Source: an uncultured Verrucomicrobiota bacterium (GTDB taxonomy: Bacteria; Verrucomicrobiota; Verrucomicrobiia; Methylacidiphilales; UBA1321). Taken from it: DNA of 64,000 nucleotides. Where the stretch lies: assembly GCA_903863295.1 (NCBI GenBank), contig CAIPBM010000145.1, positions 1-64,000 on the forward strand, given 5' to 3'. Numbering within the stretch: position 1 is the stretch's first letter; each line of letters starts with the position of its first letter. Below the pieces are notes generated by a model. It saw only the letters and a list, made by a program, of their open reading frames with translations. It was not told where the DNA came from and did not search any database. Of the stretch, positions 9,792 to 30,282 are shown one piece after another. The position numbers were made by a program, and so were the translations under genes.

Positions 9792-10184
9792 TTATTCACA
9801 GATACTTTCAAGAAGAATGGAGGAAACGAATATCTTACTGTCATCAAATGCATCACGATCTAACGCAGTTTCGTATAAAACTTCCAATGAGCCTTGATCG
9901 AGAGCAGCGGCAATCCTGGCTAGTCCTCGTCCTGAGACGGTGATGAGGTCGGGCCCAGCCTCGATCTTCAATTCTTCCTGATCCCGGCCACGGCTCCGAA
10001 GGTGCCAAGATGAAAGCACGCGGTAAGGATAGGAATGCAGTTCCTCGTAATCCTTACCCTTGCAAATCCGCAGGGTATCAACCGAGCGAGGGGTAGGGCT
10101 TATTTTCCCCCATGGCCCGCTCCAATCATCGGTTTTCGGCGGAGCTTCGACCAGATTTTGATTTTCTTTGAGTTTAATGGGCAT
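9792..10184 (-). CDS. conserved small protein of the mobilization block (copy A)
   Basis: A 130-residue protein without a family that I can name. It has a paralogue at 23162-23551 in block B, and both sit directly after the relaxase-helicase gene with overlapping ends (11 bases here). Shared features are a GPWG box near residue 24, a TLR(I/L)CK segment, HSYPYRVLSSW near residue 51, EELKIEA and an SGRGL/KGRGL box near 85. The strict linkage and overlap suggest translational coupling and a role with the relaxase, perhaps as an accessory DNA-binding or anti-nuclease factor; that is inference. The end reads ESICE without a domain hallmark. Confidence 0.75.
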   Translation of the reverse strand: MPIKLKENQNLVEAPPKTDDWSGPWGKISPTPRSVDTLRICKGKDYEELHSYPYRVLSSWHLRSRGRDQEELKIEAGPDLITVSGRGLARIAAALDQGSLEVLYETALDRDAFDDSKIFVSSILLESICE

Positions 10185-11868
10185 GGCTTCTTAATCCTTG
10201 AATAGTTTTGTTGGGCTGACTTTCCCGAGCCGATAGAGCCAGATTTCGGCGCTCTGCCCAGGCTTCAGCCTGTTCGGTTAATTTTTGAAAAATCTTCCAG
10301 CGACGGATGCGTTCATCCACAACTTCCGTGGCCAGTTTACGCTCTCCGGGTGTAGCCATTGCATCAACGGCAGCTTTTTTGTCCGTGGTGTAGGTTGTAT
10401 GGCTCTCCTCAAATCGGGAGTGACTCACGTAAGCCTGCCGCAAATTGGCGGCTCGAATGCCATCGCCCGCCATCAGGACGATGCCCCGGTCAATGGTCTT
10501 GCCTTGACCGGCGTGGGATGTCGTGGCGTACCCATGCGAGAATTGGCGAAATTCTGGTGGGATCGTTCTCTGGTCGGAAAGGACCAATGTTCCGTCCTCT
10601 ATGATCCGAGCAACTTGGACGATATTTCCGTTGAAAAGCTTATGATCTTTCAGATTGGCCCGGATCAGCAACCGCTCGCCCACGGCAATCGGTAAAGACC
10701 GTGACAGTCCGACATCAAAGCCGGGGGTCTTCGCGGGATCGAAGAGGAAATGCTGCCCCTGCTCATCCCGCACGACAATCTTGTCCTCCCGCCGCTCCTC
10801 GAAATGGACATATTCGCCCTTACGAAACCCGCTGCTGTCCTGATGAAAAGCGAGAACGTCACCTTTCTGGTAATTCCGGGCATGTCGCTGATCGGCCTTG
10901 GTCCATTGGTAGGATTGGAAGGTGTTGATCACCCGATCCTCTGCACCGAGAAGTCCCGCGTCCTTTAATTTCGGTCTTACGGTGTCGGTAAAGCGATGGA
11001 TGTCCGACCAGACAGGAGAAATCACCAGACACGATTTTTGCTGCTGGTTCGTTTTGACGTAATCGTCCGCAGCCACCTGCATCAATTGTTTTACATCGGT
11101 AATCTGTTGAACCGCGCCCAGTCGGTCGAACTCATGGAAGGCAGTGTACGCCTTTCTATCGGCTAGGAGGGAAACGGCTTTGCGAAAGGCAGGATCACGC
11201 TGGCGCAAGATTTTCGTCAGCCGAGCGGTTGTCACCTTGCCGTAGGTTTGGAGGGCACGCAGGGCATCGCCTGCCTCGACCGAGTTGTGCTGACCAATGT
11301 CGCCTACCAGCACGAGCCGGTTACCATTCTGACGGGCTATCCGGCATAAATCGCGCATCTGACGGGTTGAAACCAATCCTGCCTCATCGACAATGATGAC
11401 CCTGCCTTTGATCCGTCTTTGCAAATCGTGGTTAATCAGCAATTGCTGCAAAGTGTCAGCTTCTGGGGTCAATCGTTCACGAAGCACTTCGGTCGCTCCT
11501 GACGATGGTGCGCAGGCAAAAACATCGTTACCAGCTTTACCGATGCCTTTGACAACTTCCTTGAGCGTCAGAGTCTTGCCCGATCCTGCTTTACCCTGAA
11601 GGATCACCATTTGATCTTCACAGAAAAGAATCTTCTTCACGGCTTCGCGGTATTCGCCTTTCAGTGCCGAGTCGAGGTCCGACACTTTCCCAAGGTCGCC
11701 GTGACGGCGCTTATATGTCAAAGTCCAGTTCAGATACTCACGTTCCATCAGGAGCGTCTCCTTGGAAACAATCTCGTCTCCCTGTCGAATGAGATCACCC
11801 TTCCTGATCCGGGCCTCAATCTCCTGTTTTAATTCTCCCAGCTGAATATCACCGCGTCCGTAGATACC
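10174..11868 (-). pseudogene. MobF relaxase-helicase, N-terminally truncated (copy A)
   Basis: This is the C-terminal helicase half of a TrwC/TraI-type conjugative relaxase. It has a Walker A box LQGKAGSGKT near 11590, VIIVDEAGLVS (Walker B), LVLVGDIGQHNSVEAGDALRALQ and the RecD-like motif YATTSHAGQGKTIDRG. It aligns along its whole length with residues from about 340 onward of the intact copy at 23535-26240. Homology stops at GRGDIQLGEL near 11860, where the sequence switches to the oppositely oriented methylase-helicase gene. The three-His relaxase domain is therefore lost. An ATG at 11748 could still give a 524-residue free-standing helicase. Confidence 0.88.
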
Positions 11869-11989
11869 CGAACGGGTTTATGCGGAACAGACGCAACGCG
11901 TATCGGTTTCAAATGATGTCCTAAGCGTTCTTGTTCCCGATGACATCAAACCCAATGGCTATACCCTGATCGAAACGGATCAAGGCAAC

Positions 11990-14900
11990 ATGGTTGCCGT
12001 GCGGGATGGTGACCAACTCGTCACCCGTCCCGATCTTTCCAGCGATGCTTCTCGCCGCATTCGGGCCTTGATTAAGGTCAGGTCTGCTGTCCGGGAGTGT
12101 CTTCGCGCCCAGGTAGAAAACAAACCTGAATCTGAAATCCTCAGAACGCGCCGCCAGCTTAATTCAGAATACGATCAGTTCTATTCGCGCTTTGGTGCTA
12201 TTTCGGAAAGGACCAACACACGGGCATTTGCCGGAGACCCCGACTTGCCACTTTTGCTTTCCCTCGAAAGTTTCAACGAGGAAACCCGAGTCGCGACCAA
12301 GACGGCGATTTTCCGGGAACGTACCATCCAGTACCAAAAGCCTGCCGAGTCGGCTCAGACGGCGAGGGATGCTCTACTCATTTCGTTAAATGAAAATGGC
12401 AAGGTTGACTTGCCGCATATGAGTTGGCTTCTCAAAAAGCCAGCCGAAGAAATCATCCTTGAGCTTAAGGGAGCCATTTTCCTGAATCCCCAATCGCAAA
12501 AATGGGAAACCGACGACGCTTATCTGTCCGGCAACATCCGGGAAAAGCTGGCCGTCGCGGAAGCCGCCACGATCACGGACGCTCGTTACCAGGAAAATGT
12601 TGAGGCGCTCAAATCCGTTCTTCCCGAAGAACTCAAAGCCACGGAAATCGACGCGCGTCTTGGCTCGGCTTGGATACCCGAAAGCGACATCGAAAAATTC
12701 GCGCACGAATTGTTGAATCTGACCTCCTCAGACTCGCTTCAAGTCCGTCACCTTTCCCCGTTGGGATCATGGACGCTCCAGGCCGATTACAGTGCCAAGA
12801 GTTCGGTCGGCAATACCACAGAATGGGGCACACCTCGTTACAGCGCCATCGACCTCATGGAGGACGCCTTGAATCTGCGGACACCGACCATTTACGACAT
12901 GGACCCCAAAACCGATCAGAGGATTATCAACGCCTCGGCGACGGAGGCCGCCCGCGAGAAGCAGCAGCAAATCAAGGAACGGTTTGGGCAATGGATCTGG
13001 CAGGATGACGAGCGCCACGCGCGCCTCGTCGCCAAATACAACGAGGAATTCAACAACATCCGAGTCCGCACTTTCGACGGAACCCATCTCTCGTTGCCCG
13101 GAGCTAGTCCGATTATCACCCTTAGGCCCCACCAGAAGGCATCCGTTTGGCGCATCCTGCAAACGCCCAATACGCTCTTGGCCCACGTTGTGGGCGCCGG
13201 AAAGACCTACACCATGGTGGCTGCGGGCATGGAGGCAAAGCGGCTGGGACTTTGCCAGAAGCCGTTGTTTGCCGTCCCCAATCATATGCTCGGGCAATTT
13301 TCCTCTGAACTGCTGACCCTGTATCCGAGCGCAAACATCCTCGTGGCCGGAAAAGAGGATTTCGAGGCTTCCCGCCGCGCCCAGCTTTTTTCGAGGATCG
13401 CGACCGGCAAGTGGGATGCTGTCATTGTCACCCACTCAGGCTTTGAACGAATTCCCATGTCGAAGGAAGCCCAGGAAAATTTACTTAAAGAGCAAATCGA
13501 CGAAATGGAGATGGCCATCCTCAAACAGAAATCGGACAAAAGTTTCACCCGGCTGGTCAAGCAATTGGAGACGGCCAAGAATCGGCTGGAAACACGCCTT
13601 AAGGTCCTTTCCGCCGAGCACAAGAAGGACAATACCTTGACCTTTGAAGAGCTTGGGATCGACCGTCTGTTCGTCGATGAGGCTCATTACTTTAAGAATC
13701 TGTTTTACGTGACCAAGATGAGTCGGGTGGCTGGGCTGCCCCAAACGTCGTCCCAGCGGGCCTTCGATATGTTTCTCAAGGTGCGACACATGCAAAATCT
13801 AAGCGGCGGCGGCGGGGTGATCTTCGCCACCGGCACGCCAGTGACAAATACCATGGCCGAGATGTTCACCATGCAGCGGTATCTTCAGCGGTTCGATTTG
13901 GGAAAGCAGGGCTTGCAGCATTTTGATTCATGGGCGGCCACTTTTGGCGAACCAGTCACGGCGATGGAACTTTCTCCTGATGGCGCGGGATACCGCTTGA
14001 ATACGCGGTTTGCTCGTTTCGTCAATGTCCCGGAACTCATGCAGCAATTCCGGCAGATGGCAGACATTCAAACCTCCGAAATGCTCCAGTTGCCGGTTCC
14101 CAAGCTCTCCCAGGGCAGGGCGATGGTCGTCAGCGCCCCAGCCACCCCGGAGTTAAAGGCCTTTGTAGCGTCTCTGGTCAAGCGCGCGGAGCGCCTTCGT
14201 GGCGGGCGGGTCGATCCATCCGAGGACAATATGCTCAAGATCACGGGCGATGGCCGGAAGGCGGCGCTCGATCTCCGGTTGGTTCAGCGTGGCCGCGACC
14301 ATCCCGAGAGCAAAATTAACTACGCGACTAAGGAAATCTTCCAGATTTGGGAGCAGACGATAGACCAGCGCCTGACCCAGCTTGTTTTTTGCGATCTATC
14401 CACACCTCAACAGGGAAAGATAAAAACGTTTTCCGCCTACGACGACTTAAAGGCGAAGCTCGTCCATAAAGGAATTCCCGCCGAAGAAATCGCCTTCATC
14501 CAGGATTGCGATACGGATGCCGCCAAAGTGGCACTTTTCAAAAAGATTCGAGCCGGACAGGTGCGCGTATTGATGGGTAGCACCCAAATGATGGGAACGG
14601 GAACGAATGTTCAGGAACGCTTGATCGCGCTGCATCATCTCGATGCCCCATGGCGACCGGCCGATATTGAGCAGAGAGAAGGCCGGATTTTGCGCCAGGG
14701 AAACAAGAATCCCGAAGTAAAAATCTTCCGTTACGTGACCGAGGGCTCCTTTGACGCGTACATGTGGGGTGTGCTGGAAACCAAGGCCAAGTTCATCGGA
14801 CAAATCATGACTAAGGAAAGTCATGTTCGCAGGATCGAGGACTTGGACGCGCCGGCCCTGACCTACGCCGAGGTAAAGGCCATCGCCTCCGGTAATCCCC

Positions 14901-15616
14901 TTGTCATGGAAAAAGCCAAGGTCGATGTCGAGGTGATGCGAGTGAGTCGTCTTCGGTCCCAACACAACGAAGCGTTATTCATTACACGCAATTCGATTCG
15001 ACGAGCCCAGGAGGACATTGCCCGCTTGGAAAAGAAAATCACCCATTTGCAGGCCGACTTGCAAATCCGAAAAAACACCAGAGGGGAAGCTTTCACAATC
15101 AAAATCGAAAATCGATTCTACCAAAACCGCGAGGAAGCAGGTGCCGCCTTGAACCGTCTGGCGGATAAGCATCTCTTGACTGAAAAAACGGTGGACGTTG
15201 GCGAATTTGCCGGATTTAAGATTCAGTTTTGGCCGGATCGAGTTAAGGAGGTCGTGCTTTGGGGTAGCAACGCCTATACCGCCAAAATTTCGGACTCGCC
15301 ACTCGGAACCATCAGTTCTCTGGAACACGTCGTTCGGTCCCTTGATGAACGCATCAACGAATTCCGCAACGACCTTGCCGGAACGCTGCGCCGTCTGGAG
15401 GAACTACAGCCTCATGCCCACAAGGCATTCGAGCACGAAGAAAAGCTGAAAGGCCTGATTCAACGCCAGCAGGAGATTGTCCAAGCCCTCGATCTAACCA
15501 AAAATCAAGCCGCTAATTCGTTGGCGGCTGAAACGCCTATCATCGCGGAAGAATCCATCCAGGAAAAGCAATCCATAACCGTGTCCAACAAAGAAAATCC
15601 GAAAATAACAGTCTAA
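11990..15616 (+). CDS. SNF2-type helicase, N-terminally truncated (copy A)
   Basis: A 1208-residue protein paralogous to the C-terminal two thirds of the methylase-helicase at 30283-35427. It keeps the whole SNF2 helicase: LRPHQKASVWRIL, Walker A VVGAGKTYT near residue 400, DEAH box FVDEAHYFKN, TGTPVTNTMAEM, and the C-terminal helicase boxes MGTGTNVQERL and QREGRILRQGN. Homology to copy B begins upstream of the ATG at 11864 (IPERVYAEQ versus LPEKIYQAP), so the gene has lost its methylase domain. The ATG at 11990 is internal to the ancestral frame, and no clear ribosome site precedes it. The C-terminal 250 residues are coiled-coil rich. Expression and function are uncertain. Confidence 0.85.
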   Translation: MVAVRDGDQLVTRPDLSSDASRRIRALIKVRSAVRECLRAQVENKPESEILRTRRQLNSEYDQFYSRFGAISERTNTRAFAGDPDLPLLLSLESFNEETRVATKTAIFRERTIQYQKPAESAQTARDALLISLNENGKVDLPHMSWLLKKPAEEIILELKGAIFLNPQSQKWETDDAYLSGNIREKLAVAEAATITDARYQENVEALKSVLPEELKATEIDARLGSAWIPESDIEKFAHELLNLTSSDSLQVRHLSPLGSWTLQADYSAKSSVGNTTEWGTPRYSAIDLMEDALNLRTPTIYDMDPKTDQRIINASATEAAREKQQQIKERFGQWIWQDDERHARLVAKYNEEFNNIRVRTFDGTHLSLPGASPIITLRPHQKASVWRILQTPNTLLAHVVGAGKTYTMVAAGMEAKRLGLCQKPLFAVPNHMLGQFSSELLTLYPSANILVAGKEDFEASRRAQLFSRIATGKWDAVIVTHSGFERIPMSKEAQENLLKEQIDEMEMAILKQKSDKSFTRLVKQLETAKNRLETRLKVLSAEHKKDNTLTFEELGIDRLFVDEAHYFKNLFYVTKMSRVAGLPQTSSQRAFDMFLKVRHMQNLSGGGGVIFATGTPVTNTMAEMFTMQRYLQRFDLGKQGLQHFDSWAATFGEPVTAMELSPDGAGYRLNTRFARFVNVPELMQQFRQMADIQTSEMLQLPVPKLSQGRAMVVSAPATPELKAFVASLVKRAERLRGGRVDPSEDNMLKITGDGRKAALDLRLVQRGRDHPESKINYATKEIFQIWEQTIDQRLTQLVFCDLSTPQQGKIKTFSAYDDLKAKLVHKGIPAEEIAFIQDCDTDAAKVALFKKIRAGQVRVLMGSTQMMGTGTNVQERLIALHHLDAPWRPADIEQREGRILRQGNKNPEVKIFRYVTEGSFDAYMWGVLETKAKFIGQIMTKESHVRRIEDLDAPALTYAEVKAIASGNPLVMEKAKVDVEVMRVSRLRSQHNEALFITRNSIRRAQEDIARLEKKITHLQADLQIRKNTRGEAFTIKIENRFYQNREEAGAALNRLADKHLLTEKTVDVGEFAGFKIQFWPDRVKEVVLWGSNAYTAKISDSPLGTISSLEHVVRSLDERINEFRNDLAGTLRRLEELQPHAHKAFEHEEKLKGLIQRQQEIVQALDLTKNQAANSLAAETPIIAEESIQEKQSITVSNKENPKITV

Positions 15617-17839: not shown

Positions 17840-18888
17840 TCACTTGAGGGTATAGCGCGCCCCGCGACCCTTGCCGATTTGCGCGAGGTAGTGCTGCGCT
17901 GCCAGCTTCTTCAAGTGAGCCTTGATCGTGTTGCGGTTGGCGCCCGTCGTATCCTCGATCTCCTTGACCGTGATTTCACCACGCGTCTTGGCGAGGTCGA
18001 GGATCTGCCGCGAAAGCGCGGGCAGTGTCGCCCGCAGCGATTGCTCTTCCTTCACCTTCGCCGCCAGGTTGTCTTTCTGCTTCACCATCGTTTTCAGGAA
18101 AAAGACCAGCCACGGCTCCCAATTCTGCGCTTCCTTGCGGATGGTCTGCTGGGTGCGGCGCAAGGCGAGGTAATAGCCATCCTTGTTCGCCTCGATGACG
18201 CCTTCCATCGAACTATAGGGCACATAACCGTATCCGACCCGCAACAGCAGCAAAGTCGTCAGCACCCGCGAAAGCCGACCGTTGCCGTCCTTAAATGGGT
18301 GGATCGCCAAAAACACCGCGATGAAATCCCGATCAGGATCAACGGATGATGGACCTCCTCGTTGACCGCTTGGTTGTACCAATCGACCAGCTCTTTCATC
18401 CATCCAGGCGTTTCAAAAGGCGTGGCCGTTTCAAAAACGATGCCGAGACTCTTGCCGTCCGGTCCGAAGGCTTCAACGTTATTCGTCACTGTCTTGTATT
18501 CGCCCCGATGTTCCTGGTCCTTGGTGCTGTACTTGAGCAAGACCCCATGCAACTGCTTAAGATGATTTTCCGTCGGCGTGATCGCTTCGTACCCGTCGAA
18601 GATCATGTCCATCGCGTCGGCATAGCCCCCGACCTCCTGCTCGTCACGGCTGACAAACGATTTGGCCCGCAACCCGGAAAGTAACTTTTCCACTTCTGCG
18701 TCGCTGAGCTTGGAACCCTCGATGCGGGTCGACGATCCTACGCTTTCAATCGTCGCAATGCGCCGCAGGCTCGTCAGCCTTTCAGGCGCGAGTGTCTCGA
18801 TGACTTTCCAGCGCCCCTTGAACTCGTCGATATCGGCGATGAGCTTCAAAATCTCCGGGGTAATGGTGATGTTCTTAATCTCAACCAT
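17840..18888 (-). pseudogene. Fic-domain protein with C-terminal winged HTH, frameshifted
   Basis: A Fic protein that would transfer AMP or a related nucleotide to a target protein. The N-terminal part (from 18888) has ATIESVGSSTRIEGSKLSD, which contains the S/TxxxE(G/N) inhibitory motif. The core has HRGEYKTVTNNV, VHHPL and the complete Fic motif HPFKDGNGRLSR. The C-terminal 60 residues form a winged helix (EITVKEIEDTTGANRNTIKAHL). The reading frame changes between PLILIGI and FIAVFLAIHPF. A run of three T on the coding strand at 18324-18326 probably lost one T. Restoring it gives about 350 residues, the usual length. It may be a real mutation or a sequence error. Direct repeats in its promoter suggest autoregulation. 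Confidence 0.85.
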
Positions 18889-19165: not shown

Positions 19166-19660
19166 ATGAAAACACAAACACCACTCTCTAAAAATCATCT
19201 CACCAAACTCGTGGAGCGCGGCTTCGTCCTCCAAAACCAGCTCCTCGTCCTCCAGGCGGAATTTGCCGGCATCAAGGACCAGTTGAAAGCCGAAGCGCTC
19301 ACCCGGGCGGGCGAGCATATCCCGCTCTCCGACAAAAAAAGCGAAGGAGACCAGTGGATCGCCACCGGCAAAGATTGCGAGTGCCGCATCGTCTTTCCCG
19401 CGCCGAAAATCAAAACCGACCTTGATCCCTTGGAACCCGATTTCAAGACGATCAAGGCGCTGACCGGCGACCACTTCCGTTCGTTGTTTCACCGGGTCGT
19501 TTCTTATGAACCGCAGGACAAGAAAACCTTCCGTGACGATGTGAGTCGTTTTCTCGCCGAATCGGCGGCGACTCAACTGCTCGATCTCTGCACCAGTCCG
19601 TCCGAACCCAAGGCGGTTTGGAAAGCTCTTCCCAAGCCCGCGAAAGGCAAGTCCGCCTAA
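19166..19660 (+). CDS. hypothetical protein, first gene of HTH/ATPase set
   Basis: A 164-residue soluble protein. I chose the ATG at 19166 (MKTQTPLSKNHLTKL) over an upstream in-frame start at 19130, since it follows AAAGGAACC at a proper distance. The N-terminal 50 residues look helical. The middle holds GEHIPLSDKKSEGDQWIATGKDCECRIVFP and the C-terminal part is acidic and helical. I recognise no family. It lies directly downstream of the 10-bp repeat array and 12 bases before the next gene, so it heads a three-gene unit. Confidence 0.6.
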   Translation: MKTQTPLSKNHLTKLVERGFVLQNQLLVLQAEFAGIKDQLKAEALTRAGEHIPLSDKKSEGDQWIATGKDCECRIVFPAPKIKTDLDPLEPDFKTIKALTGDHFRSLFHRVVSYEPQDKKTFRDDVSRFLAESAATQLLDLCTSPSEPKAVWKALPKPAKGKSA

Positions 19661-19961: not shown

Positions 19962-21818
19962 ATGAAAAAACCTTCTTCACCCCAATCGCCCAACCTCGTT
20001 CTGACCTCCGCTGAATTCGCCGCCTTGGTCCGGTGCGGCGAGGAATGGGACCGCATCCAATTCATGAATTTGTCCCGGCTCCCCGGACGCCTTTCCGTTC
20101 AGGAAGCCGCCTGGCTCCTCGGCTTCAAGCCTCACGATATTCCGGTTCTCGTCTCTTACCGCTTGCTTCAGCCCATGGGTACGCCGCCCAAGAATGGAGA
20201 GAAGCATTTTTCCTCCGGGCAACTGGAGCGGTTGAGCCGCGAGGCCTGGATCGAACAGGGAATACCGCGCATCCGAGGCATCTCGCCAGACCCAGAGCGA
20301 AAGCTCTGCCCCTTCTGCGCTCAGGAGATCAGCGGCTCGACTCTGATCCGCGATTACCAGACGTACTTCGACGAGTCCTACCGCGCCCTCAAGGCAGAGG
20401 TTGACGCCCGCGGCAAGGCGTTGGCGTCGGCCCACGGGGGAGATAATCGCGCTACTTTCGAGCGAGCCGTTCGGGTTGCTGTCGAGACGAGAGATTCTTG
20501 GATCAGGTACGTCGAAGTCCCCGAGATCAACATCGACACCGCTCGCATCTCCGATGTGTGGCGTGCGGCGCGCGAAACCGTCTTCACGCAACTCCGTGCC
20601 AAGCAGGCAGCGCCACTTGACGCGATGAGCCTGTCTCCCGAAGCAGCGGCGGCGGTGGATGCTTATCATGTCGAGCGCCAAAAGGTTCTCGAAGTGTCAC
20701 AGCGACTGCAGGCTCTCAACACCGAGATCACCCGCGTTAAGGAACGGTCGTTCAGGGCGGACCTCACGACGCTTAGAAACGAATTAACGCTGCTGAAGGC
20801 GACACAAGCCCGCCATGCTGTGCCCACCGCCACTCGCTGCGTGGAGTATATGGCGGAAAAGGCCGCCAAGCAGGTCACTGAACAGGCCCGGGAAACGGCG
20901 CGTGTGGCACTGGAGAACTACAGCCAGAACGTCTTTCCGCAATACCAGACGGCGATCAATGAATACCTGGATCGTTTCAATGCTGACTTCAAGCTGGACT
21001 CGGTGGGTCCGCGCGGAACCCGAGGGGGCACGGTTTGCAGCTATTCGGTCCTAATCAACAATATCCCAGTTGATATCATGGCCAGCTCGGGACCTTCCTT
21101 CAAGACCACGCTGAGCGCCGGCGATCGCAACACGCTCGCTCTGGCGTTCTTCTTCGCCTCCTTGGATGCCGATCCCCGTCTGGCCCAGATGACCGTCGTC
21201 ATCGATGACCCGATGACCAGTCTTGATGAGCACCGCTCTCTCGCGACCGTGCAGGAAATTCGCCGCCTGGGCAACCGGGTGGCCCAACTAATCATCCTGT
21301 CGCACTCCAAGCCGTTTCTTTGCGCGATGTGGGAATCTGACACGAGCGCGAACAAAACCGCACTGAGCATCATTAGGGATGGCACTGGCTCCACGTTGGC
21401 AGCGTGGGACGTGACGCAGGACTGCATTACCGAGCACGACCGCCGGCATCAGATGATCCAAGCCTATATTGCAGGCGGAGCCGCTGCCGCAGCGACGGCA
21501 AGGGATACCGCCATTGCCCTACGCCCAACGCTGGAAGGCTTCATTCGGGTGGCCTACCCGGAAGTCTTTCAGCCTGGCTGCATGTTGGGAAATTTCGTCA
21601 CTATCTGCCGCCAGCGGATTGGGGCAACAAATCAACTTCTTTCCCAAGCCGACGCGGAAGAGTTGGACCAGATCGTTGATTACGCGAACCGATTTCATCA
21701 CAACACCAATCCGAACTGCGTTTCAGCGGTGATAAACGATCAGGAGCTGCTGCGCTATTGCAGACGAACGATCGCATTTACGCGGCGGACGGCGCCTCCA
21801 GCGAGGCCCACCCCATAA
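19962..21818 (+). CDS. chimeric HTH / AAA_13 (PrrC/RloC-like) ATPase lacking Walker A
   Basis: A 618-residue fusion. Residues 1-106 are an excisionase-like HTH segment. From KLCPFCAQE (about 113) onward it matches the C-terminal half of AAA_13 ATPases: a CPFC zinc-hook-like motif, a coiled coil (about 130-330), the ABC signature LSAGDRNTLALAFFFASLD (about 384), Walker B VVIDDPMTSLDE (about 412) and H-loop LILSHSKPF. The N-terminal ATPase lobe with Walker A is absent. The tail has RPTLEGFIR and later NRFHHNTNP, which recall the R-x3-E...H arrangement of PrrC/RloC anticodon nucleases; I cannot confirm that. The start follows the previous stop by 7 bases. It may be a decayed gene fusion or a subunit needing a partner for ATP binding. 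Confidence 0.75.
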   Translation: MKKPSSPQSPNLVLTSAEFAALVRCGEEWDRIQFMNLSRLPGRLSVQEAAWLLGFKPHDIPVLVSYRLLQPMGTPPKNGEKHFSSGQLERLSREAWIEQGIPRIRGISPDPERKLCPFCAQEISGSTLIRDYQTYFDESYRALKAEVDARGKALASAHGGDNRATFERAVRVAVETRDSWIRYVEVPEINIDTARISDVWRAARETVFTQLRAKQAAPLDAMSLSPEAAAAVDAYHVERQKVLEVSQRLQALNTEITRVKERSFRADLTTLRNELTLLKATQARHAVPTATRCVEYMAEKAAKQVTEQARETARVALENYSQNVFPQYQTAINEYLDRFNADFKLDSVGPRGTRGGTVCSYSVLINNIPVDIMASSGPSFKTTLSAGDRNTLALAFFFASLDADPRLAQMTVVIDDPMTSLDEHRSLATVQEIRRLGNRVAQLIILSHSKPFLCAMWESDTSANKTALSIIRDGTGSTLAAWDVTQDCITEHDRRHQMIQAYIAGGAAAAATARDTAIALRPTLEGFIRVAYPEVFQPGCMLGNFVTICRQRIGATNQLLSQADAEELDQIVDYANRFHHNTNPNCVSAVINDQELLRYCRRTIAFTRRTAPPARPTP

Positions 21819-21868: not shown

Positions 21869-22897
21869 TCAGGCGCGCTTACGGCAGGACGTCGGCAGAA
21901 CCACGATCGTTCCATCGTCCTGGCGCTTGAATCGCGCATGGACTTTAATGCTGTCTTGGACCTGCGAGACTGCGTGGATGATCTTCCCGAGGACTTTGTC
22001 GAAGTTGTCGAAATTCACGACCAGGATTGATCGTGTGATCTGGCGGAACAGCACTTCGAGGTACCATCTCGGTGTTTGGGTGCCGCCGAATTTCCGTAAT
22101 GCATGAAGCTCCTCAAGGCGGCTCACGACGGTGGCATTGAACAAGAGTAGCGAACCGGCTTTCTGGAGCGCAAAGCTCTCCAGCCCCTCATCTGGCGACT
22201 GTGACCACAACAGCGCCGGCGTGTTTTTGGCCACATCGCTTTCCTTCTTGGCGGCGTGGTAGTGCTTCAATGAAAGCCCTGCCTTGAGAACGAAGAGCTT
22301 CGCTGTAGTCAGGAGTATGGGCACAATGAACATCGGTTCGATGTCCCCTGGCGATTCGAACTGGTTCACCATGAGTTGGCGGGCCAAAGCCGGAAGCGCA
22401 TAGCGAAGCTGCTTACCTCCTTTTTCGATCCCTAGTCCCTCGGGAGATTCGGCCCCTTTAAAGCACCACGGCAACGATCGGTTGAACGCCGTCAATGGTG
22501 CGTGCCCACGGATAAGCGACGATGCGGTGAGATGGTCCAAGACCGAAATGACATCATGGCCTCCAAGGTAACTTACCTGCGGACTAAAGAACCATTGAGA
22601 GCCGGGGTGGATGTATTTGCACTCGATAAGGAAAATGATCCGAGATTTCTTGGCTCGGTGGTAGGGCCACTTGAATCCGTAGTGGGCGAATAGATCAATA
22701 CTGAACGATTTATCGATTCGGTTTTCGTCCTGGCGCATGTAGGTGAACTCGCCTAGGACCTGGCATTTTCTCGCGTGCAGCATCCGCGCGGCAACACTTT
22801 CGAGCGGTAGTCCGCTTTTCAGCAGATTACTTTTCCATTTCTTGTCATCGCCCGAGCCTGACGGCAGAGTTTTGGCCTTGTGCGATTGCTTTGTCAC
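21869..22897 (-). CDS. PD-(D/E)XK nuclease-like protein
   Basis: A 342-residue protein with a probable restriction-endonuclease-like fold: PLESVAARML (helix with Glu33), SIDLFA (Asp68) and IIFLIECKY (Glu92, Lys94) give the E...D...ExK pattern with the right hydrophobic strands. The rest (HDVISVLDHL, LPWCFKGAE, FVLKAGLSLKHYHAAKKESD, VLFRQITRSILVVNFDNFDKVL) has no family that I recognise. The start appears to be GTG at 22897. It is convergent with the AAA_13 chimera, with 50 bases between the stops. ATPases of the AAA_13 type often sit near nucleases in defence islands, so a defence role is plausible but inferred. Confidence 0.6.
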   Translation of the reverse strand: MTKQSHKAKTLPSGSGDDKKWKSNLLKSGLPLESVAARMLHARKCQVLGEFTYMRQDENRIDKSFSIDLFAHYGFKWPYHRAKKSRIIFLIECKYIHPGSQWFFSPQVSYLGGHDVISVLDHLTASSLIRGHAPLTAFNRSLPWCFKGAESPEGLGIEKGGKQLRYALPALARQLMVNQFESPGDIEPMFIVPILLTTAKLFVLKAGLSLKHYHAAKKESDVAKNTPALLWSQSPDEGLESFALQKAGSLLLFNATVVSRLEELHALRKFGGTQTPRWYLEVLFRQITRSILVVNFDNFDKVLGKIIHAVSQVQDSIKVHARFKRQDDGTIVVLPTSCRKRA

Positions 22898-23161: not shown

Positions 23162-23551
23162 TTACGACTGGGAAATGGTAATGGATGAAACCCAGATTGG
23201 ATTCTCGAGGTCAGCAGGCTTACCAGCAGGTTCCTCACTAACAATTTCTAATGCATTCAAATCTAGAGCCTCAGCCAAGCGGCCCAGTCCACGACCCTTG
23301 ATGGTGACGAGGTCGGAGCTGGCCTCGATTTTTAATTCTTCCTCGCCAACCCCGCCAAGCCAATTCCAAGAGGAAAGCACGCGGTAGGGATACGAATGGG
23401 TTTCTTCAGTAGAGGGAGACGCCTTTTTGCAAAGCCGAAGCGTAATGACTGATTGAGGCTCGGGATTGATCCGGCCCCAGGGACCGCGCAATTCATCCTT
23501 TCGGTTAACGGGTTCAGATGGAATGTGAGATTTTTTAGGTTTGAGAGACAT
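23162..23551 (-). CDS. conserved small protein of the mobilization block (copy B)
   Basis: A 129-residue paralogue of the protein at 9792-10184. Shared blocks are GPWGRINPEPQSVITLRLCK, ETHSYPYRVLSSW, EEELKIEASSDLVTIKGRGLGRL and a hydrophobic end (WVSSITI). Its start overlaps the end of the relaxase gene by 17 bases, which points to coupled translation. I know no function. Conservation of both sequence and position in two diverged blocks argues for a real role next to the relaxase. Confidence 0.78.
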   Translation of the reverse strand: MSLKPKKSHIPSEPVNRKDELRGPWGRINPEPQSVITLRLCKKASPSTEETHSYPYRVLSSWNWLGGVGEEELKIEASSDLVTIKGRGLGRLAEALDLNALEIVSEEPAGKPADLENPIWVSSITISQS

Positions 23552-26240
23552 AAGTTCTTTGAGTGATTGGGTTGCGGTGCGCCTTGCGAGCGGTCATCGC
23601 CATGCGGCGGCGCTCGGCCCAGGCTTCAGCTTGTTCGGTTAGTTTCTGACAAATCTTCCAACGGCGAATGCGCTCGTTGACAATCTCAATGGCCAAGGCG
23701 CGATCAGCGGGCGTGGCCATTGCGTCCATCGAGGCACGCCGGTCAGTGGTATAGGTGACATGGCTGTCCTCGAAACGGGAATGGCTAACGTAGGCTTGCT
23801 TGAGGTTAGCAGCCTGAATCCCCTCACCGGCCATGAGGACAATGCCCCGATCCACCGTTTTGCCTTGTGCGGCGTGGGATGTTGTCGCGTAGCCGTGGGA
23901 AAACCGCCGGAATTGTGGGGGGATGGTGCGTTTGTCTTTGAGGACAATCGTGCCGTCCTCCCTCACGCCAGCCACCTCGACAATATTCCCGTTGAAAAGC
24001 TTGTGCTCTTTCAGGTTGGCGCGGATGAGGAGCCGTTCGCCGATGGACACCGGCAGCGACCGGGACAAGCCGACGTCGAAGCCCTTGGCGTCCGAGGGAA
24101 CAAAGGCGAACCGTCGTCCCTCTTCATCCCGCACCACGATCTTTTCCCCACGCCGCTCCTCAAAGGCGAGATATTCACCCTTGGAGAACCCGGCGCTGTC
24201 TTTATGGAAGGCGAGGACATCACCCGCCTGGTATTTGCAGGCATCCTGGCGAGACGCTTCCGTCCACTGGTACGAATGGTAGGTGACGACGGACTTATCC
24301 TCTTCGGCCAGAACTCCCGCCGCCTTGAGCCGTGGCCGGACCTCGCCGGTGAACCGATGAATGTCCGACCAGACCGGGGAAATTACCAAACATGATTTCT
24401 TCTGGCCGATGGTTTTCACATAATCGTCCACCGCCATGTGCATTAGCACCTTGGGATCGGGGATTTCCTTGACCGCGCCCAGCCGGTAAAATTCCTCGAA
24501 AGCCCGATAAGCCTTCTTGTCGGCCAGCAATGAAACGGCACTGCGGAAGGCTGGGTCTCGCTGGCGGCGAATCTTGATCAATCGTGCCGTGACTACGTTG
24601 CCGTAGGTCTGCAACGCGCGGAGAGCGTCCCCCGCTTGGACGGAGTTGTGCTGGCCGATGTCGCCCGTCAGGAGGAGACGATTGTTGTTCTCCCTCGCTA
24701 TTCGGCATAGGTTACGCATTTGCTGCGTCGAGATAAGCCCTGCTTCATCAACGATGATGACTTTGTTTCTGATTCGTTGTTGCAGGTCCTCGTTGACGAG
24801 CAATTGCTGCAACGTATCGGCCTTGAGCGTCAGTTCATTTCGCATCACTTCCGTCGCCCCCGATGATGGTGCACAGGCAAAGACATCGTTCCCGCCTTTT
24901 TCAATACCTTTGACGATTTCCCGTAGCGTGCGGGTTTTACCTGTTCCAGCCTTCCCCTGAAAAATAATCACCTGATCGCGGTTGAAAAGGATGGTGCGGA
25001 CGGCCTCGCGTTGTTCCTTGGTCAACTCGGGATCGAGATTGGACACCCGGCCCAAATCGCTGTGACCACGTTTATACGTCAGCACCCAATTGAGATATTC
25101 CCGTTCCATCGCAAGCATTTCGCGGGAAATGATGTTCCTGCCCTTCCGAATAAGATCACCTTTGGCGACTCGTACAGCAACTTCCCTTCGTAAATCCCCA
25201 AGCTGAACATCAGCCCGGCCCGAGATGAGGGCTTCCCGCAGCAGTATCCGCACGTCAATCACGGAATGGCGCTCGAATACTTCGGCTTGCGCTCGATCCA
25301 TCGCTTCCGATACCGATCTGGTGTGACGGTGCTTGGCGATGCCATCCGCCTGCGCGATGACGCCCTTGACGACGTTGAGATGATCACCGCTGGCCTCGCA
25401 CCATTGACGACGTAATTCTTCCGGCTCAACGGCGATCTTATTGGCGCGGGTACTTCCGGCAATCTTTTGCAACCCATCCTGACTCGTCACATTCATGCTC
25501 GCGGCGACACGTTCAATTTCCTCATGCCGCTTGCTGAACTGGTCACGCAGGGTTGGTGGAAAGCCCTTGATATGAAAGCCGATCTTTCGTGCTTCCTCGA
25601 TTTCGTAACCGGCTTCCGTCATGCGTTCTGCCAGTTTATTATAGCAGACCTCCCGGCAAAATGACTGGTATTGATAATACCCCTCTGGTTGCACCGCCTT
25701 CCATTGTTGTTCGACATCATCATAGCTAATGTTCATGATGCAAATATGGGTGTGTAATTGCGGGTCAAGGGCACGGCTGGCATCGTGTGTGACGATGGTC
25801 GCCACCATCCTGTTCGTGTAACGGTCCTGATTATCGATGCCCCCCTTCCTGATCCTGACCGCCGTGACCGCCTCAATTTCCTTGATGGTGTCGTTAACCG
25901 CCTCTTTCCACCAACCGGCAATTCGTTCATCTCCCGCGACGAGATAGGCAATGGACACATCTTTTGGTGGTGAAATTTGACCGAAGTAGCAGACTCGTTT
26001 TTCAGGACCGCTCTCCCTCGCAGCTAATCTTTCACCTGTGACCGGATGCTTGCCTGCACAGAGGCGGGTGAATTCTGTTTGACGCACATGGCCACTCAAT
26101 CCGAGCTGCTTTGCTCCTTCACCCACCCAGGTCATTTCCGATTGTCCCCCTTGCGAGAGATAGTCTTTCTTGGCCATGTGCGTGCGGAAATACTTCACCG
26201 CCGCTCTGACTTGCTTACAGGGTTTATCAAATCGAACCAT
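23535..26240 (-). CDS. MobF-family conjugative relaxase-helicase
   Basis: A roughly 900-residue relaxase of the TrwC/TraI type, which nicks one strand at oriT and unwinds it for transfer. The start at 26240 (MVRFDKP) has an AGAAGG site 8 bases upstream, better than the in-frame start at 26267. The N-terminal domain has candidate catalytic tyrosines (VKYFRTHMAKKDYL), ISPPKDVSIAYLV and the metal-binding box THDASRALDPQLHTHICIMN. The C-terminal helicase has Walker A FQGKAGTGKTRTL, VIIVDEAGLIS, LLLTGDIGQHNS and HGYATTSHAAQGKTVDRG. All motifs of an active enzyme seem present. It is transcribed away from the repeat-rich region at 26268-26706, the likely oriT side. Confidence 0.93.
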   Translation of the reverse strand: MVRFDKPCKQVRAAVKYFRTHMAKKDYLSQGGQSEMTWVGEGAKQLGLSGHVRQTEFTRLCAGKHPVTGERLAARESGPEKRVCYFGQISPPKDVSIAYLVAGDERIAGWWKEAVNDTIKEIEAVTAVRIRKGGIDNQDRYTNRMVATIVTHDASRALDPQLHTHICIMNISYDDVEQQWKAVQPEGYYQYQSFCREVCYNKLAERMTEAGYEIEEARKIGFHIKGFPPTLRDQFSKRHEEIERVAASMNVTSQDGLQKIAGSTRANKIAVEPEELRRQWCEASGDHLNVVKGVIAQADGIAKHRHTRSVSEAMDRAQAEVFERHSVIDVRILLREALISGRADVQLGDLRREVAVRVAKGDLIRKGRNIISREMLAMEREYLNWVLTYKRGHSDLGRVSNLDPELTKEQREAVRTILFNRDQVIIFQGKAGTGKTRTLREIVKGIEKGGNDVFACAPSSGATEVMRNELTLKADTLQQLLVNEDLQQRIRNKVIIVDEAGLISTQQMRNLCRIARENNNRLLLTGDIGQHNSVQAGDALRALQTYGNVVTARLIKIRRQRDPAFRSAVSLLADKKAYRAFEEFYRLGAVKEIPDPKVLMHMAVDDYVKTIGQKKSCLVISPVWSDIHRFTGEVRPRLKAAGVLAEEDKSVVTYHSYQWTEASRQDACKYQAGDVLAFHKDSAGFSKGEYLAFEERRGEKIVVRDEEGRRFAFVPSDAKGFDVGLSRSLPVSIGERLLIRANLKEHKLFNGNIVEVAGVREDGTIVLKDKRTIPPQFRRFSHGYATTSHAAQGKTVDRGIVLMAGEGIQAANLKQAYVSHSRFEDSHVTYTTDRRASMDAMATPADRALAIEIVNERIRRWKICQKLTEQAEAWAERRRMAMTARKAHRNPITQRTYVSQT

Positions 26241-26295
26241 GCCAACGACCTTCTCACATGACAGCAATCGTAGTCATGAACTCCGTGGTATTTTT

Positions 26296-26313
26296 GGTAG
26301 TGCCGACACTACC
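26296..26313. repeat. perfect hairpin GGTAGTG/CACTACC
   Basis: Seven-base perfect arms with a CCGA loop. The arm sequence GGTAGTG recurs as direct repeats about 320 bases away at 26618-26644, so one protein may bind both sites. Confidence 0.65.
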
Positions 26314-26617
26314 GACAACGATTTGACCTCGTGATTGATCGTATGCTTCGTCATGATTCATGCTCAAATCCGTAAAGAATCGGATTTCAAGGAGCAAAAA
26401 TAGGGTCAGGGAAAAGGGGGGAGGACACGCCACCCCGAACGAAGTTCGGTTTAGGCCGGCGCAGGGTGCGTGATTCGTCATCATTCCTGATGCTTCATCA
26501 TTGATCGTCGTGCTGACTTCACGCTCATTGCTCGCGACGATTCATCATAATAGCGCCACCGATGCTGCTGCTGCTCCCTAGTCGAATCGTTCGGCAAAGG
26601 AGCCGATTCCATTTTCC

Positions 26618-26665
26618 GGTAGTGCCGGTAGTACGGGTAGTGCGCGTCCTACCAAAACTACCAGC
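26618..26665. repeat. three 9-bp direct repeats plus inverted half-sites
   Basis: GGTAGTGCC, GGTAGTACG and GGTAGTGCG follow each other with a 9-bp period (26618, 26627, 26636). Inverted half-sites CCTACC and ACTACC follow. They end about 45 bases before the ATG at 26707, whose product has an HTH-like segment, so autoregulation or partition-like binding is plausible. Confidence 0.65.
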
Positions 26666-26706
26666 GAAATTTTGCTTTCGGATGTTGATCATGGCTATGT
26701 GGCACC

Positions 26707-27075
26707 ATGAACAACCAAGAACTTCAAGCGGACCTCGCCAGGGTCGCTGCGGAGTATAATCACTCCGTTTTACAACAGGCAGTTTTAGAAAACTACAAGG
26801 ATTCGATTCTTCTCTTACGAGCGAAGTACGCCAGTTACGAGAAGATTTCAGAACTCCTCAACGAGCGCGACATCAAGGTGTCCGTCGCCACGGTGAGGAA
26901 GTTTTGCCGGAAGTACCAGGAGGAGGCACAACGCCTTCGCGCCGAGATCGCGGCAGATAGCGGCACGGAGGACAAGCCTGCGCCACAGCCAACCGCACCG
27001 GCGAATAACAATCGCCCGCCACTCACCAGTGAACCGGGCAAACGCGGACCGCGCACGGCTCGCGATCAACTGTAA
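26707..27075 (+). CDS. small DNA-binding-like protein, first gene of coupling operon
   Basis: A 122-residue protein. Residues about 30-65 (SILLLRAKYASYEKISELLNERDIKVSVATVRKFCRKY) read as a helix-turn-helix of the kind found in small conjugation or mobilization regulators. The C-terminal 45 residues are Pro-rich and basic (KPAPQPTAPANNNRPPLTSEPGKRGPRTAR), probably disordered. It sits right after the GGTAGT repeats and 12 bases before the ParA-like gene. A TrwA-like accessory role at oriT or a ParB-like role is inferred from context only. Confidence 0.6.
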   Translation: MNNQELQADLARVAAEYNHSVLQQAVLENYKDSILLLRAKYASYEKISELLNERDIKVSVATVRKFCRKYQEEAQRLRAEIAADSGTEDKPAPQPTAPANNNRPPLTSEPGKRGPRTARDQL

Positions 27076-27087
27076 TCACGGAGAACC

Positions 27088-27810
27088 ATGACTATTGAAC
27101 TCAAACCACAACCTAAGAAAAAGCTGATCGTCTTTCCGCAGGACAAAGGAGGCATCGGCAAAAGCTTCATCGCCACCCTGCTTTACGATTATCTCACCGA
27201 ACAATCCATCAAACTCAAGACGTTCGACCTGGATCATGCGAACAGCACGTTTCAGCGCTTCGTACCGGAAGCCGACTTTCTCGATACCGATGTCGATGCG
27301 AACAAGTTGGCCGTGCTCGACACGATGGTCAACGCGCTTGAGACCGTAGATGTCGTGTTGGTCGATAACCGGGCATCAGGCGGAACCAAGGTGCTCCGCT
27401 ATATCGAGGACAGCCGATTGACACAACTGCAAAAGGACCTCGATTTCGAGTTGCTATTCGTTGTCGTCGTCCTCGAAGACAAGGATGCCATTTCGCAAAT
27501 TGCCGACTTGCTGGACGCATACCATGACCGCGTGCGCTGGCTCGTCGTGAGGAACTACCGCGATACGGCAACGATCACGATGTACGACGGATCGAAGACC
27601 CGCGAACGGTTGCAAACCATGGGAACCCTCGAAATCGAAGTGCCGTGCCTCACGGAAGTGACGCGGAACAAGCTTCAGTTGAACAATCTCACTGTGAGCA
27701 AAGGTCGCACTTCTCCCAAGGTCCACCTGCTCGATCGCAGCCGTTGCAAAACCTTCCACGAGGGGATGGCCGCTCAGTTCGACAAGGCGAAAGGAGAGAT
27801 TCTGCCATGA
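27088..27810 (+). CDS. ParA/MinD-like ATPase (StbC/TraL type)
   Basis: A 240-residue ATPase with a deviant Walker A (FPQDKGGIGKSFIATLL, about residues 16-30), KTFDLDHANSTFQRF and VLVDNRASGGTKVL as the switch and Walker B-like regions. The rest (VVVVLEDKDAISQIADLLDAY, WLVVRNYRDT) keeps the P-loop fold. It resembles the ATPases that accompany coupling proteins in mobilizable elements rather than chromosomal ParA. It is preceded by an ACGGAGAACC ribosome site, and its stop overlaps the next start (ATGA at 27807). Confidence 0.8.
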   Translation: MTIELKPQPKKKLIVFPQDKGGIGKSFIATLLYDYLTEQSIKLKTFDLDHANSTFQRFVPEADFLDTDVDANKLAVLDTMVNALETVDVVLVDNRASGGTKVLRYIEDSRLTQLQKDLDFELLFVVVVLEDKDAISQIADLLDAYHDRVRWLVVRNYRDTATITMYDGSKTRERLQTMGTLEIEVPCLTEVTRNKLQLNNLTVSKGRTSPKVHLLDRSRCKTFHEGMAAQFDKAKGEILP

Positions 27811-28307
27811 GCACTCCCGATCAACTTAAACAACCGGCGCAGTTGCCCGACGACCTCAAGGTGCTTCTGGCTGAAATAAAAGTACCGACAACCGATCCGC
27901 TCCTGCCGTTACTGGCGTGGATTTGGAAACAAATGGTGGATACCAAGGCCGTCCTTGAATCAGCCAGGTCATCCGCTGCCGCCGTATTTGACAACCGGCT
28001 GGAAAGGATGAACAAGACAGCAGAAATACTGATCTCCGTCGATGAGAGTTTACAGCAGGTCGATGAACAGCTTCGAGCCAAGCCCCTGCAAGTAAAGGAG
28101 CAGGTCGAGGAAGAGTTGGCTGAGCCGATCAAGGCCGCCGTCGAATCGTGCCGCAAGCTCGACCAGCAGATGAAAAGCCTGCTGCAAAGGCTCGATCACA
28201 AGGTGGGGCGAACCCAACGGGCGCTCAACATCGCATTATTCGTGGCGGGATTCACCGGAGGAGGACTCATAGGCTTATGTATTGGTCATCTTTTCTCTTC
28301 GCATTAA
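27807..28307 (+). CDS. coiled-coil protein with C-terminal membrane anchor
   Basis: A 166-residue protein beginning MSTPDQLKQPAQL. The frame is open further upstream, but the ATG overlaps the ParA-like stop. The middle is a helical coiled coil (DNRLERMNKTAEILISVDESLQQVDEQL to LLQRLDHKVGRTQ). The C-terminal 25 residues form a membrane segment (ALNIALFVAGFTGGGLIGLCIGHLF). It overlaps the coupling protein gene by 31 bases. I know no family; the layout recalls small anchors that pair with coupling proteins. Confidence 0.65.
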   Translation: MSTPDQLKQPAQLPDDLKVLLAEIKVPTTDPLLPLLAWIWKQMVDTKAVLESARSSAAAVFDNRLERMNKTAEILISVDESLQQVDEQLRAKPLQVKEQVEEELAEPIKAAVESCRKLDQQMKSLLQRLDHKVGRTQRALNIALFVAGFTGGGLIGLCIGHLFSSH

Positions 28308-29788
28308 TTACCACGGCTCTGGCCGTGGCCTTCATCGGACTCGATCACGAGATTTGGGCGTTGATCCTGACCCCGGCGGCGGCATGGTTCGCCTTTCTGA
28401 CCTTCGCCCTGGACGAGGCCGAGGAATGGAAATACGTCCTGACCCTCGGCGGCGTGCGCTGGACGGAGGCCGATTTTTGCCGGGGCTGGGAAATCGACGG
28501 GCGCACCGGCTCCGGCAAGACGGCCAGCGGCGTCGTGCCGATCATCCATGCACTAAAGATTAGCCGACCGGACATGGGCATTCTGGCGCTCGATACCAAG
28601 GGCGATCTCAGCGAGCCCTTGCTGGCCATTGCCGAGGAATTAGGCCAGGAGTCGGAGATTCGGCAATTGGAAGTCCGGCCCGACAACGCGCCTCCCGATT
28701 GGCAACCATCCTACACGATCAATATTCTGGCTGACCGAAGCATTCCGTTTTCGACCTATGCCAAAATCCTGGTCGATGTGGCAACCGCCGCCGGCCAAAA
28801 AGGCGGACAGGCGTTTTTCAAGAATGCCGCCCAAGTTGCCATTGAAAATGCGATGGCGCTCTTGGATGCCCTTGATTGGCCCGTGACCATCGACAACTGC
28901 TATTATCTGGTCACAGACATGACGGAACTGACGGACCGGGTTGAGGAAATCGAAAAATTGGACAAACCCGAGCATGGGCACCTGCTCGATTATTACCGGG
29001 AGTTCGTCAAACAGCCGCCCGAGCAATTAAGCGGCATCCGCTCCACTGTCTTCAATTACCTTCAGCCGTACACCGCGCCGGACATCGCCGAGATTTTTTG
29101 CACCTCCGATCCAACCTTCGCCATCAAGGAATTGGATTTAGGACGGCTGGTGACGATTAAGATTCCGCAGAAATTCCAGACAGAGAAAAAATACATCAGC
29201 CTCTTGCTGAAAGTTCTATTTTACCTTCATGCTCTTCGGCGATACGACCTCCCGGCCGATGAGCGGGACCAGAAGAACCTCATTGTTCTGGTGTTGGACG
29301 AGGCACAAGAAACCGTTCTTGTCAGCGAGGATGGCATTTCCGACTACAACGTCGTGGACAAAATTCGCGGGGCGCGGGCAACCACGATCAATTCAACGCA
29401 GTCACCCACCTCGTATATTCCAGCGATGGGCAACCGGGAGAAGGCGGACGTCTTTCTCCTGAATCTCGGGAACAAGATTTACTTCACCGCAGCGGACAAG
29501 CTTTCCTCGGAAATGCTCGCCGACTCCATCGGCAAGCACACGATCAAGAAGCGCACCTATGGCCGTTCCCTGGGTAAAAGCAACACAAGCTGGACGGAAC
29601 AGGACGAGCACCTGATTAAGCCGCACGTCCTCCGCGCCCTGCCCAAGCACACCGCCATCATCAAGCATTGCGAGCGGCCCTATAAGCGCGTCTTCCTTCG
29701 GCCATCTCCTTTCACCAAGCCCAAACCGGCAGTGAAACCAGAACCCTTACAGGTCTCTCAAACCAAAACCAAAAAATCGACCCCATGA
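28277..29788 (+). CDS. type IV coupling protein (VirD4/TraD-like)
   Basis: A 503-residue ATPase that would deliver the relaxase-DNA complex to a secretion channel. The ATG at 28277 (MYWSSFLFALITTALAVAFIG) gives two N-terminal membrane segments; an upstream in-frame start at 28148 would only add basic sequence overlapping the previous gene. Walker A is EIDGRTGSGKTASGVVP near residue 78, and Walker B is LIVLVLDEAQETV near 340. DTKGDL, IRSTVFNYL and INSTQSPTSYIPAMG fit the family. The length is that of a short VirD4 without a large C-terminal extension. Cognate channel genes are not seen in the window apart from the fragments at 15981-17452. Confidence 0.85.
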   Translation: MYWSSFLFALITTALAVAFIGLDHEIWALILTPAAAWFAFLTFALDEAEEWKYVLTLGGVRWTEADFCRGWEIDGRTGSGKTASGVVPIIHALKISRPDMGILALDTKGDLSEPLLAIAEELGQESEIRQLEVRPDNAPPDWQPSYTINILADRSIPFSTYAKILVDVATAAGQKGGQAFFKNAAQVAIENAMALLDALDWPVTIDNCYYLVTDMTELTDRVEEIEKLDKPEHGHLLDYYREFVKQPPEQLSGIRSTVFNYLQPYTAPDIAEIFCTSDPTFAIKELDLGRLVTIKIPQKFQTEKKYISLLLKVLFYLHALRRYDLPADERDQKNLIVLVLDEAQETVLVSEDGISDYNVVDKIRGARATTINSTQSPTSYIPAMGNREKADVFLLNLGNKIYFTAADKLSSEMLADSIGKHTIKKRTYGRSLGKSNTSWTEQDEHLIKPHVLRALPKHTAIIKHCERPYKRVFLRPSPFTKPKPAVKPEPLQVSQTKTKKSTP

Positions 29789-29931
29789 ATCTCATTAAAG
29801 AATGGATCAATGCCATCCTTCGAATCGCAAAAAATAATGCCGAATACAGTGAACTCCACCGGAAGGTACAGGAGCGTATTTTCCTTTTTGGTATCGAGAT
29901 CGGCCTAAAGAGAAAACTCAGCCCGCAATAG
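29785..29931 (+). CDS. 48-residue protein after the coupling protein
   Basis: A short frame starting with ATG in the ATGA overlap with the coupling protein stop (MNLIKEWINAILRIAKNNAEYSELHRKVQERIF...). It is helical, charged and free of membrane segments. The overlap and direction suggest that it is translated with the operon. Family unknown. Confidence 0.5.
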   Translation: MNLIKEWINAILRIAKNNAEYSELHRKVQERIFLFGIEIGLKRKLSPQ

Positions 29932-29952
29932 CGTGCCCAATATAAGAAGACC

Positions 29953-30273
29953 TTGATAACGGCTCAGACATTGTTCCTCTTTGCCGAAAAGGACGACGCC
30001 AAATTGACCGGTCCCAACCCTGTCGATCATCTGACGGCGCAATACCTGTTGCATGACTGGATTGCAGAAGAGCCCTCGGTGCGCGCGATGCTCGAAAAGG
30101 AGTTGGGACATAGTTTTGATGAACTTGACCACCTGCCCGCCATGTCACCGCAGTTGCGGCAGATGACGCTGGATCAACTCAAGCTAATTTCCCTCCTTTA
30201 TCCCGAACAGCTTCCCGAGGAAGAGATCGCCGCGATCCTCGACCGGCTGGACCATCCGCTTGACCGGGCATGA
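29953..30273 (+). CDS. small acidic protein between coupling protein and helicase
   Basis: A 106-residue frame with a TTG start preceded by ATAAGAAG. It has no membrane segment or Cys motif. Segments such as DHLTAQYLLHDWIAEEPSVRAMLEKELGHSFDELDHLP and ISLLYPEQLPEEEIAAILDRL look like a helical soluble protein. The stop is 10 bases before the next large gene. I do not recognise a family. Confidence 0.55.
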   Translation: MITAQTLFLFAEKDDAKLTGPNPVDHLTAQYLLHDWIAEEPSVRAMLEKELGHSFDELDHLPAMSPQLRQMTLDQLKLISLLYPEQLPEEEIAAILDRLDHPLDRA

Positions 30274-30282
30274 GGACAGAAC

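Follow-up and report, generated by a model that had tools for sequence, protein, structure and literature searches.

The window analysed here, a 64,000-nucleotide stretch of a contig from an uncultured Verrucomicrobiota bacterium, contains a stop-free open reading frame in which an HTH part is followed directly by the C-terminal two thirds of an ABC ATPase. The read-through from HTH to ATPase in one ORF was confirmed and is a real observation. The features of the locus are as follows.

19166..19660, plus strand: conserved gene (DUF, ~164-176 aa), located directly before the HTH gene in related elements, with 53-57% identity in L039, L041, L165 and L169
19673..19954, plus strand: standalone HTH protein of 93 aa, a paralogue of the fusion N-terminus (~40% identity to the fusion HTH) and member of a ~95-aa protein family
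19962-21818, plus strand: HTH–ATPase fusion ORF, 618 codons, stop-free
19962..20240, plus strand: HTH part of the fusion, aa 1-93, with a conserved core at aa 30-91; matches HTH family model positions 5-80 of 97, with 53-58% identity to standalone relatives
20235..20243, plus strand: fusion junction, codons 92-94, directly before W96, where HTH homology ends and ATPase homology starts
20241..21818, plus strand: C-terminal two thirds of a putative RloC-like ABC ATPase-HEPN protein, aa 94-618; aligns with residues ~250-764 of full-length homologues at 48-56% identity
20307..20318, plus strand: CPFC zinc-hook motif, aa 116-119; C116 and C119 identical in 86 of 86 sequences
21111..21125, plus strand: ABC signature LSAGD, aa 384-388, from the alignment; S385, G387 and D388 identical in 86 of 86
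21195..21227, plus strand: Walker B and D-loop VVIDDPMTSLD, aa 412-422; D415, D416 and D422 identical in 86 of 86
21300..21305, plus strand: H-loop Ser-His, S447-H448 (LSHS), identical in 86 of 86
21429..21794, plus strand: likely HEPN-like RNase domain, aa 490-611, with R521-x3-E525 and H579-H580, from the predicted fold and conserved residues

Alignment with full-length relatives revealed that the ATPase homology runs from E94-A95-W96 through to the C-terminal end, and W96 is identical in all 86 sequences compared. Pfam AAA_13 matches residues 90-536 (E 3.1e-17) over profile positions 237-656 of 713, and the start of this match at position 237 indicates that the N-terminal third of AAA_13 is missing from the fusion. 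Walker A, present as G/AENGRGKT in relatives, is absent from the ORF, bearing out the description in the first-pass annotation of an HTH fused in frame to an AAA_13-type second half without Walker A. The family-model match of the HTH stops at position 80 of 97, so that the fusion HTH lacks the last ~20 residues of its family; with the HTH end and the ATPase front both lost, both fusion partners are truncated. The earlier annotation had overlooked the HTH's own lost end and the C-terminal HEPN RNase domain.

The HTH part had been described as paralogous to the protein just upstream, and comparison of the two gave about 40% identity across ~60-70 aa, in agreement with that description; other standalone copies are nearer to the fusion HTH, with 53-58% identity. 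The source assembly contains seven copies of the HTH family, the fusion included, and about 30 are present in 12 genomes of the taxonomic family, with a few more in the wider phylum. The relatives in the taxonomic family are standalone proteins of ~95 aa, with no fused example other than this one, and the aligned standalone members have a terminal segment around W..A...L..HW. No Pfam match at cut-off was obtained for the family: the HTH_17 model scored 13 bits for the upstream paralogue, against a cut-off of 27, and gave no match for the fusion HTH. No PHROG match of the family is convincing either, the MerR-like phrog_2474 giving E 0.11 for the upstream paralogue. An excisionase-like identity of the family may be taken as a lead only. 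In the structure model of the fusion, the HTH portion is unreliable (pLDDT 25-50), and no claim is based on it.

The CPFC, ABC signature, Walker B and H-loop had been listed as retained, and alignment confirmed this, with the individual residues named in the list above identical in 86 of 86 sequences. Full-length relatives, with 48-56% identity, are proteins of 760-800 aa that carry Walker A, the CPFC hook, ABC signature, Walker B, H-loop and a C-terminal HEPN domain, and plasmid-borne examples are found in Sphingobium, Methylocystis, Rhizobium, Ketogulonicigenium and Paracoccus (48-54% identity). They begin ~250 residues earlier, with an N-lobe containing GENGRGKTT or close variants. In the fusion, the HTH replaces this N-lobe and the outgoing coiled-coil arm; the CPFC and the return arm of the coiled-coil insert are kept. 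The best defence-library match of the fusion is the PADLOC candidate PDC-S06, with the fusion covering only positions 263-709 of 784; the full-length relatives cover most of the model PDLC04895, beginning at its start. Several of the ATPase relatives adjoin type II restriction-modification genes, including BsuBI/PstI-type, PaeR7I-type with an Eco57I-type methylase, and Eco29kI-type. In the model of an intact relative, both lobes form one Rad50/SMC-type head (Z 23.0 to 5da9_B), and the model of the fusion contains the C-lobe alone (Z 12.7 to the Rad50 C-lobe chain 1f2u_B).

The C-terminal domain of the fusion is predicted to be a helical bundle. Model residues 490-616 match the HEPN structure 2hsb (Z 9.6, rmsd 3.2, 113 aligned), and the same stretch matches the HEPN structures 5yep_C (Z 9.5), 7bxo_D (Z 9.0) and 3o10_D (Z 8.8); these matches carry moderate weight, since for helical domains a Z below about 13 may reflect a common arrangement. 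Of the sequences with a residue at the position, 85 of 85 share R521 and E525, and 84 of 85 share H579 and H580. With four HEPN entries on one stretch and the conserved residues in place, a C-terminal HEPN domain is likely.

RloC is characterized by Arg-x3-Glu-x(36-52)-His, a CxxC hook and a size of 658-897 aa (PMC2610378), and the RNase domains of PrrC and RloC belong to the HEPN superfamily (PMC3710099). The layout of the fusion family recalls that of RloC. A central CxxC hook sits in a coiled-coil insert, of which the fusion keeps CPFC and the return arm; the ABC signature, Walker B and H-loop are in place; and the likely HEPN domain at the C-terminus has R-x3-E, followed further on by a His. 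The RloC size range takes in the full-length relatives (PMC2610378). Unlike RloC, the fusion itself has an HTH where Walker A, the N-lobe and the outgoing coil arm would be expected. Its E525-to-H579 spacing is 53 residues, compared with the published 36-52 for RloC. The ATPase family is thus more specific than AAA_13, with an RloC-like layout and a catalytic spacing just beyond the published range, and tRNA cleavage by the fusion's branch is putative. In PrrC, too, an ABC ATPase precedes a HEPN anticodon nuclease, whose catalytic residues are of the same kind (PMC2610378, PMC3710099); PrrC differs in having no coiled-coil/hook insert, half the size and a tie to a type I R-M system, and the PrrC defence-library match of the fusion is weak (E 1e-4). 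Rad50/SbcC resembles the fusion family in head fold and zinc-hook layout and differs in having no HEPN domain.

To survey homologous loci, genome_contigs was scanned with an alignment query, which gave 126 relatives, of which 80 loci were kept; a single-protein query found none. Among these 80 loci, the N-lobe is encoded at every locus with a readable start, with a P-loop nearly always of the form ENGRGKT or ENARGKT. The N-lobe is broken by a frameshift or stop in L065 and L093, and in L108 and L124 the homologue is cut near contig ends. L177 (IMG/VR, around 4001) is an RloC-like copy without its 5' part that lies, out of frame, next to a fragment of a restriction helicase. On one Sphingomonas plasmid, the copy is divided between two genes. 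Together, L065, L093, L177 and the split Sphingomonas copy indicate that broken copies are not rare. In a partial sampling of 12 genomes of the taxonomic family and 388 of the phylum, full-length relatives were found in G285 (767 aa, 50% identity), G009 and G300. An N-lobe query easily detected these three (E 1.7e-82, 6.7e-32 and 1.3e-26, respectively), yet returned nothing at E <= 1 from the source assembly, which is about 94% complete. No second example of the HTH–RloC joint was found among the 80 loci, the HTH relatives in the taxonomic family or the phylum genomes sampled. Viral contigs searched for an exact match to the joint gave nothing, and phage records contained no relative.

The pair formed by the DUF gene and the HTH gene recurs in related elements, often near the same neighbour gene, and the DUF gene also lies directly before the HTH gene in the more distantly related L170 and L171. 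In G011 (L170, G011:C4, 4173-7694), CBASS genes lie behind the pair on the same strand, encoding an HNH-SAVED effector and a CD-NTase, and in G004 an HNH gene lies among unknown genes 3' of the HTH gene. Given these differing genes, the region behind the HTH gene looks like a cargo site, with defence cargo in G011. Near the DUF-HTH pair of G005 there is, in L165 (145-1116, minus strand), an alpha-glutamyl/putrescinyl thymine pyrophosphorylase-like (hypermodified base) gene.

Other genes of the window were also inspected. Just upstream of the fusion region, a Fic-family gene (17840-18888, minus strand) is frameshifted, with its N-terminal part in one frame and its HPFKDGNGR catalytic part in another. 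Comparison of 9810-15616 with 23162-35427 revealed that the transfer region is present a second time in damaged form, having lost a large internal segment: remnants of the relaxase (aa 348-903) and the methylase-helicase (aa 464-1713) meet near 11864, and the ~6-7 kb that separate them in the other copy are missing. At 21869-22897 on the minus strand lies an orphan gene of 342 aa, in which an IECKY motif resembling PD-(D/E)XK was recognized by eye. It was considered as a partner of the fusion and dropped, since relatives are absent from plasmids and from 288 other genomes of the phylum.

The terminal branch of the fusion is among the longest of the 86 sequences (five are longer), and one of 63 near-invariant sites is changed (F179S). 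Divergence of the hook/coil, head and HEPN regions is in ordinary proportion, and no regional relaxation marking a partial loss of function was seen across them. Given the fusion's own codons, a neutral sequence would keep its conserved sites this intact for only ~0.03 substitutions per site (at 0.03, the joint probability is 0.025), which sets an upper limit to the age of the deletion if the fusion is now neutral. There are two ways to read this, a recent deletion or a fusion that selection still maintains, and we favour the recent deletion because of the uniqueness of the joint and the damage to both folds.

We propose, with a probability of about 0.84, that a one-off deletion within the cargo region of a conjugative-type element gave rise to the fusion ORF. 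In the parent, a standalone HTH gene would have had behind it, in the same orientation, a full-length RloC-like gene encoding, in order, the Walker A N-lobe, outgoing coiled-coil arm, CPFC hook, return arm, C-lobe and HEPN RNase. A single deletion would have taken the last ~20 HTH codons, the intergenic gap and the first ~250 RloC-like codons, with the reading frame kept by chance, as would happen in about one third of random deletions. The observation that over 600 codons remain open had been offered as unusual for decay; the argument is a weak one, since a deletion younger than ~0.03 substitutions per site stays open and a third keep the frame. The same-strand defence cargo behind the HTH gene in G011 provides an arrangement in which a single deletion would yield such an ORF. 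Also in favour of a deletion are the damage elsewhere in the window, namely the frameshifted Fic gene and the internally deleted transfer-gene copy, and the loss of the 5' part in another homologue, L177. The parental order, the recency of the event and the inactivity of the product are what we infer; the fusion is most likely an inert remnant, and its product is expected to be inactive.

The first-pass annotation had weighed a recent deletion fusion against a regulator that borrows a split ATPase. The former gained support: the joint was found only here, homologues elsewhere are as a rule full length and carry Walker A, and the assembly yielded no P-loop lobe to a query that detects it in relatives. 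Of the pattern that it had anticipated for a one-off deletion, the uniqueness held, but the intact rloC-like gene in the same syntenic place, behind an HTH gene, was found at no locus in relatives. The ORF is also free of stops, and the conserved motifs that it retains are undamaged; continued selection would likewise account for this. On that alternative, the ORF would encode a working chimera. The HTH would then have stepped in for the ATPase lobe to control or target the HEPN RNase, and the protein would be either a regulator bound to DNA or a nuclease with altered gating. The frame kept for 618 codons, the intact HEPN active-site residues and the lack of regional relaxation are consistent with such a protein, yet we regard it as unlikely, given the single example known, an HTH without its conserved C-terminal end, and a head without the N-lobe strands and helix and the outgoing coil arm, where the model of the intact relative has one complete head. 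RloC RNase activity is moreover dependent on the RloC ATPase (PMC3874168). An expressed and selected fusion, in which the HTH instead of the ATPase lobe would switch an RloC-type HEPN RNase, is very unlikely and draws no support from the findings; if true, it would represent a control mode not described in the literature consulted.

The two lobes of Rad50 can be supplied as separate chains, and the C-lobe model of the fusion matches Rad50 chains that consist of the C-lobe only, such as 1f2u_B. Supply of the N-lobe in trans by another gene is nevertheless exceedingly improbable in view of the empty N-lobe query of the source assembly, at its ~94% completeness, and the regulator with a borrowed split ATPase is left unsupported, with neither an N-lobe partner nor a second example found. 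The draft state of the genome (194 contigs, 4% estimated contamination) and the single occurrence of the joint could alternatively point to an assembly chimera, with two unrelated stretches joined at about 20240. However, the joint is in frame and lies at a shared tryptophan, codon-position G+C is alike on its two sides (third position 0.70 and 0.70), and the assembly offers no alternative path through either half, making such an artefact quite unlikely.

As a remnant left by a deletion, the fusion is of little weight in itself; it illustrates how defence cargo behind a recurring HTH gene in these elements can be lost by deletion, and it cautions that an open, motif-rich chimeric ORF may be a recent wreck. 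For the ATPase family, the PADLOC PDC-S06 branch of AAA_13 appears to end in a HEPN-like domain, which makes its full-length members candidate RloC-type RNases.
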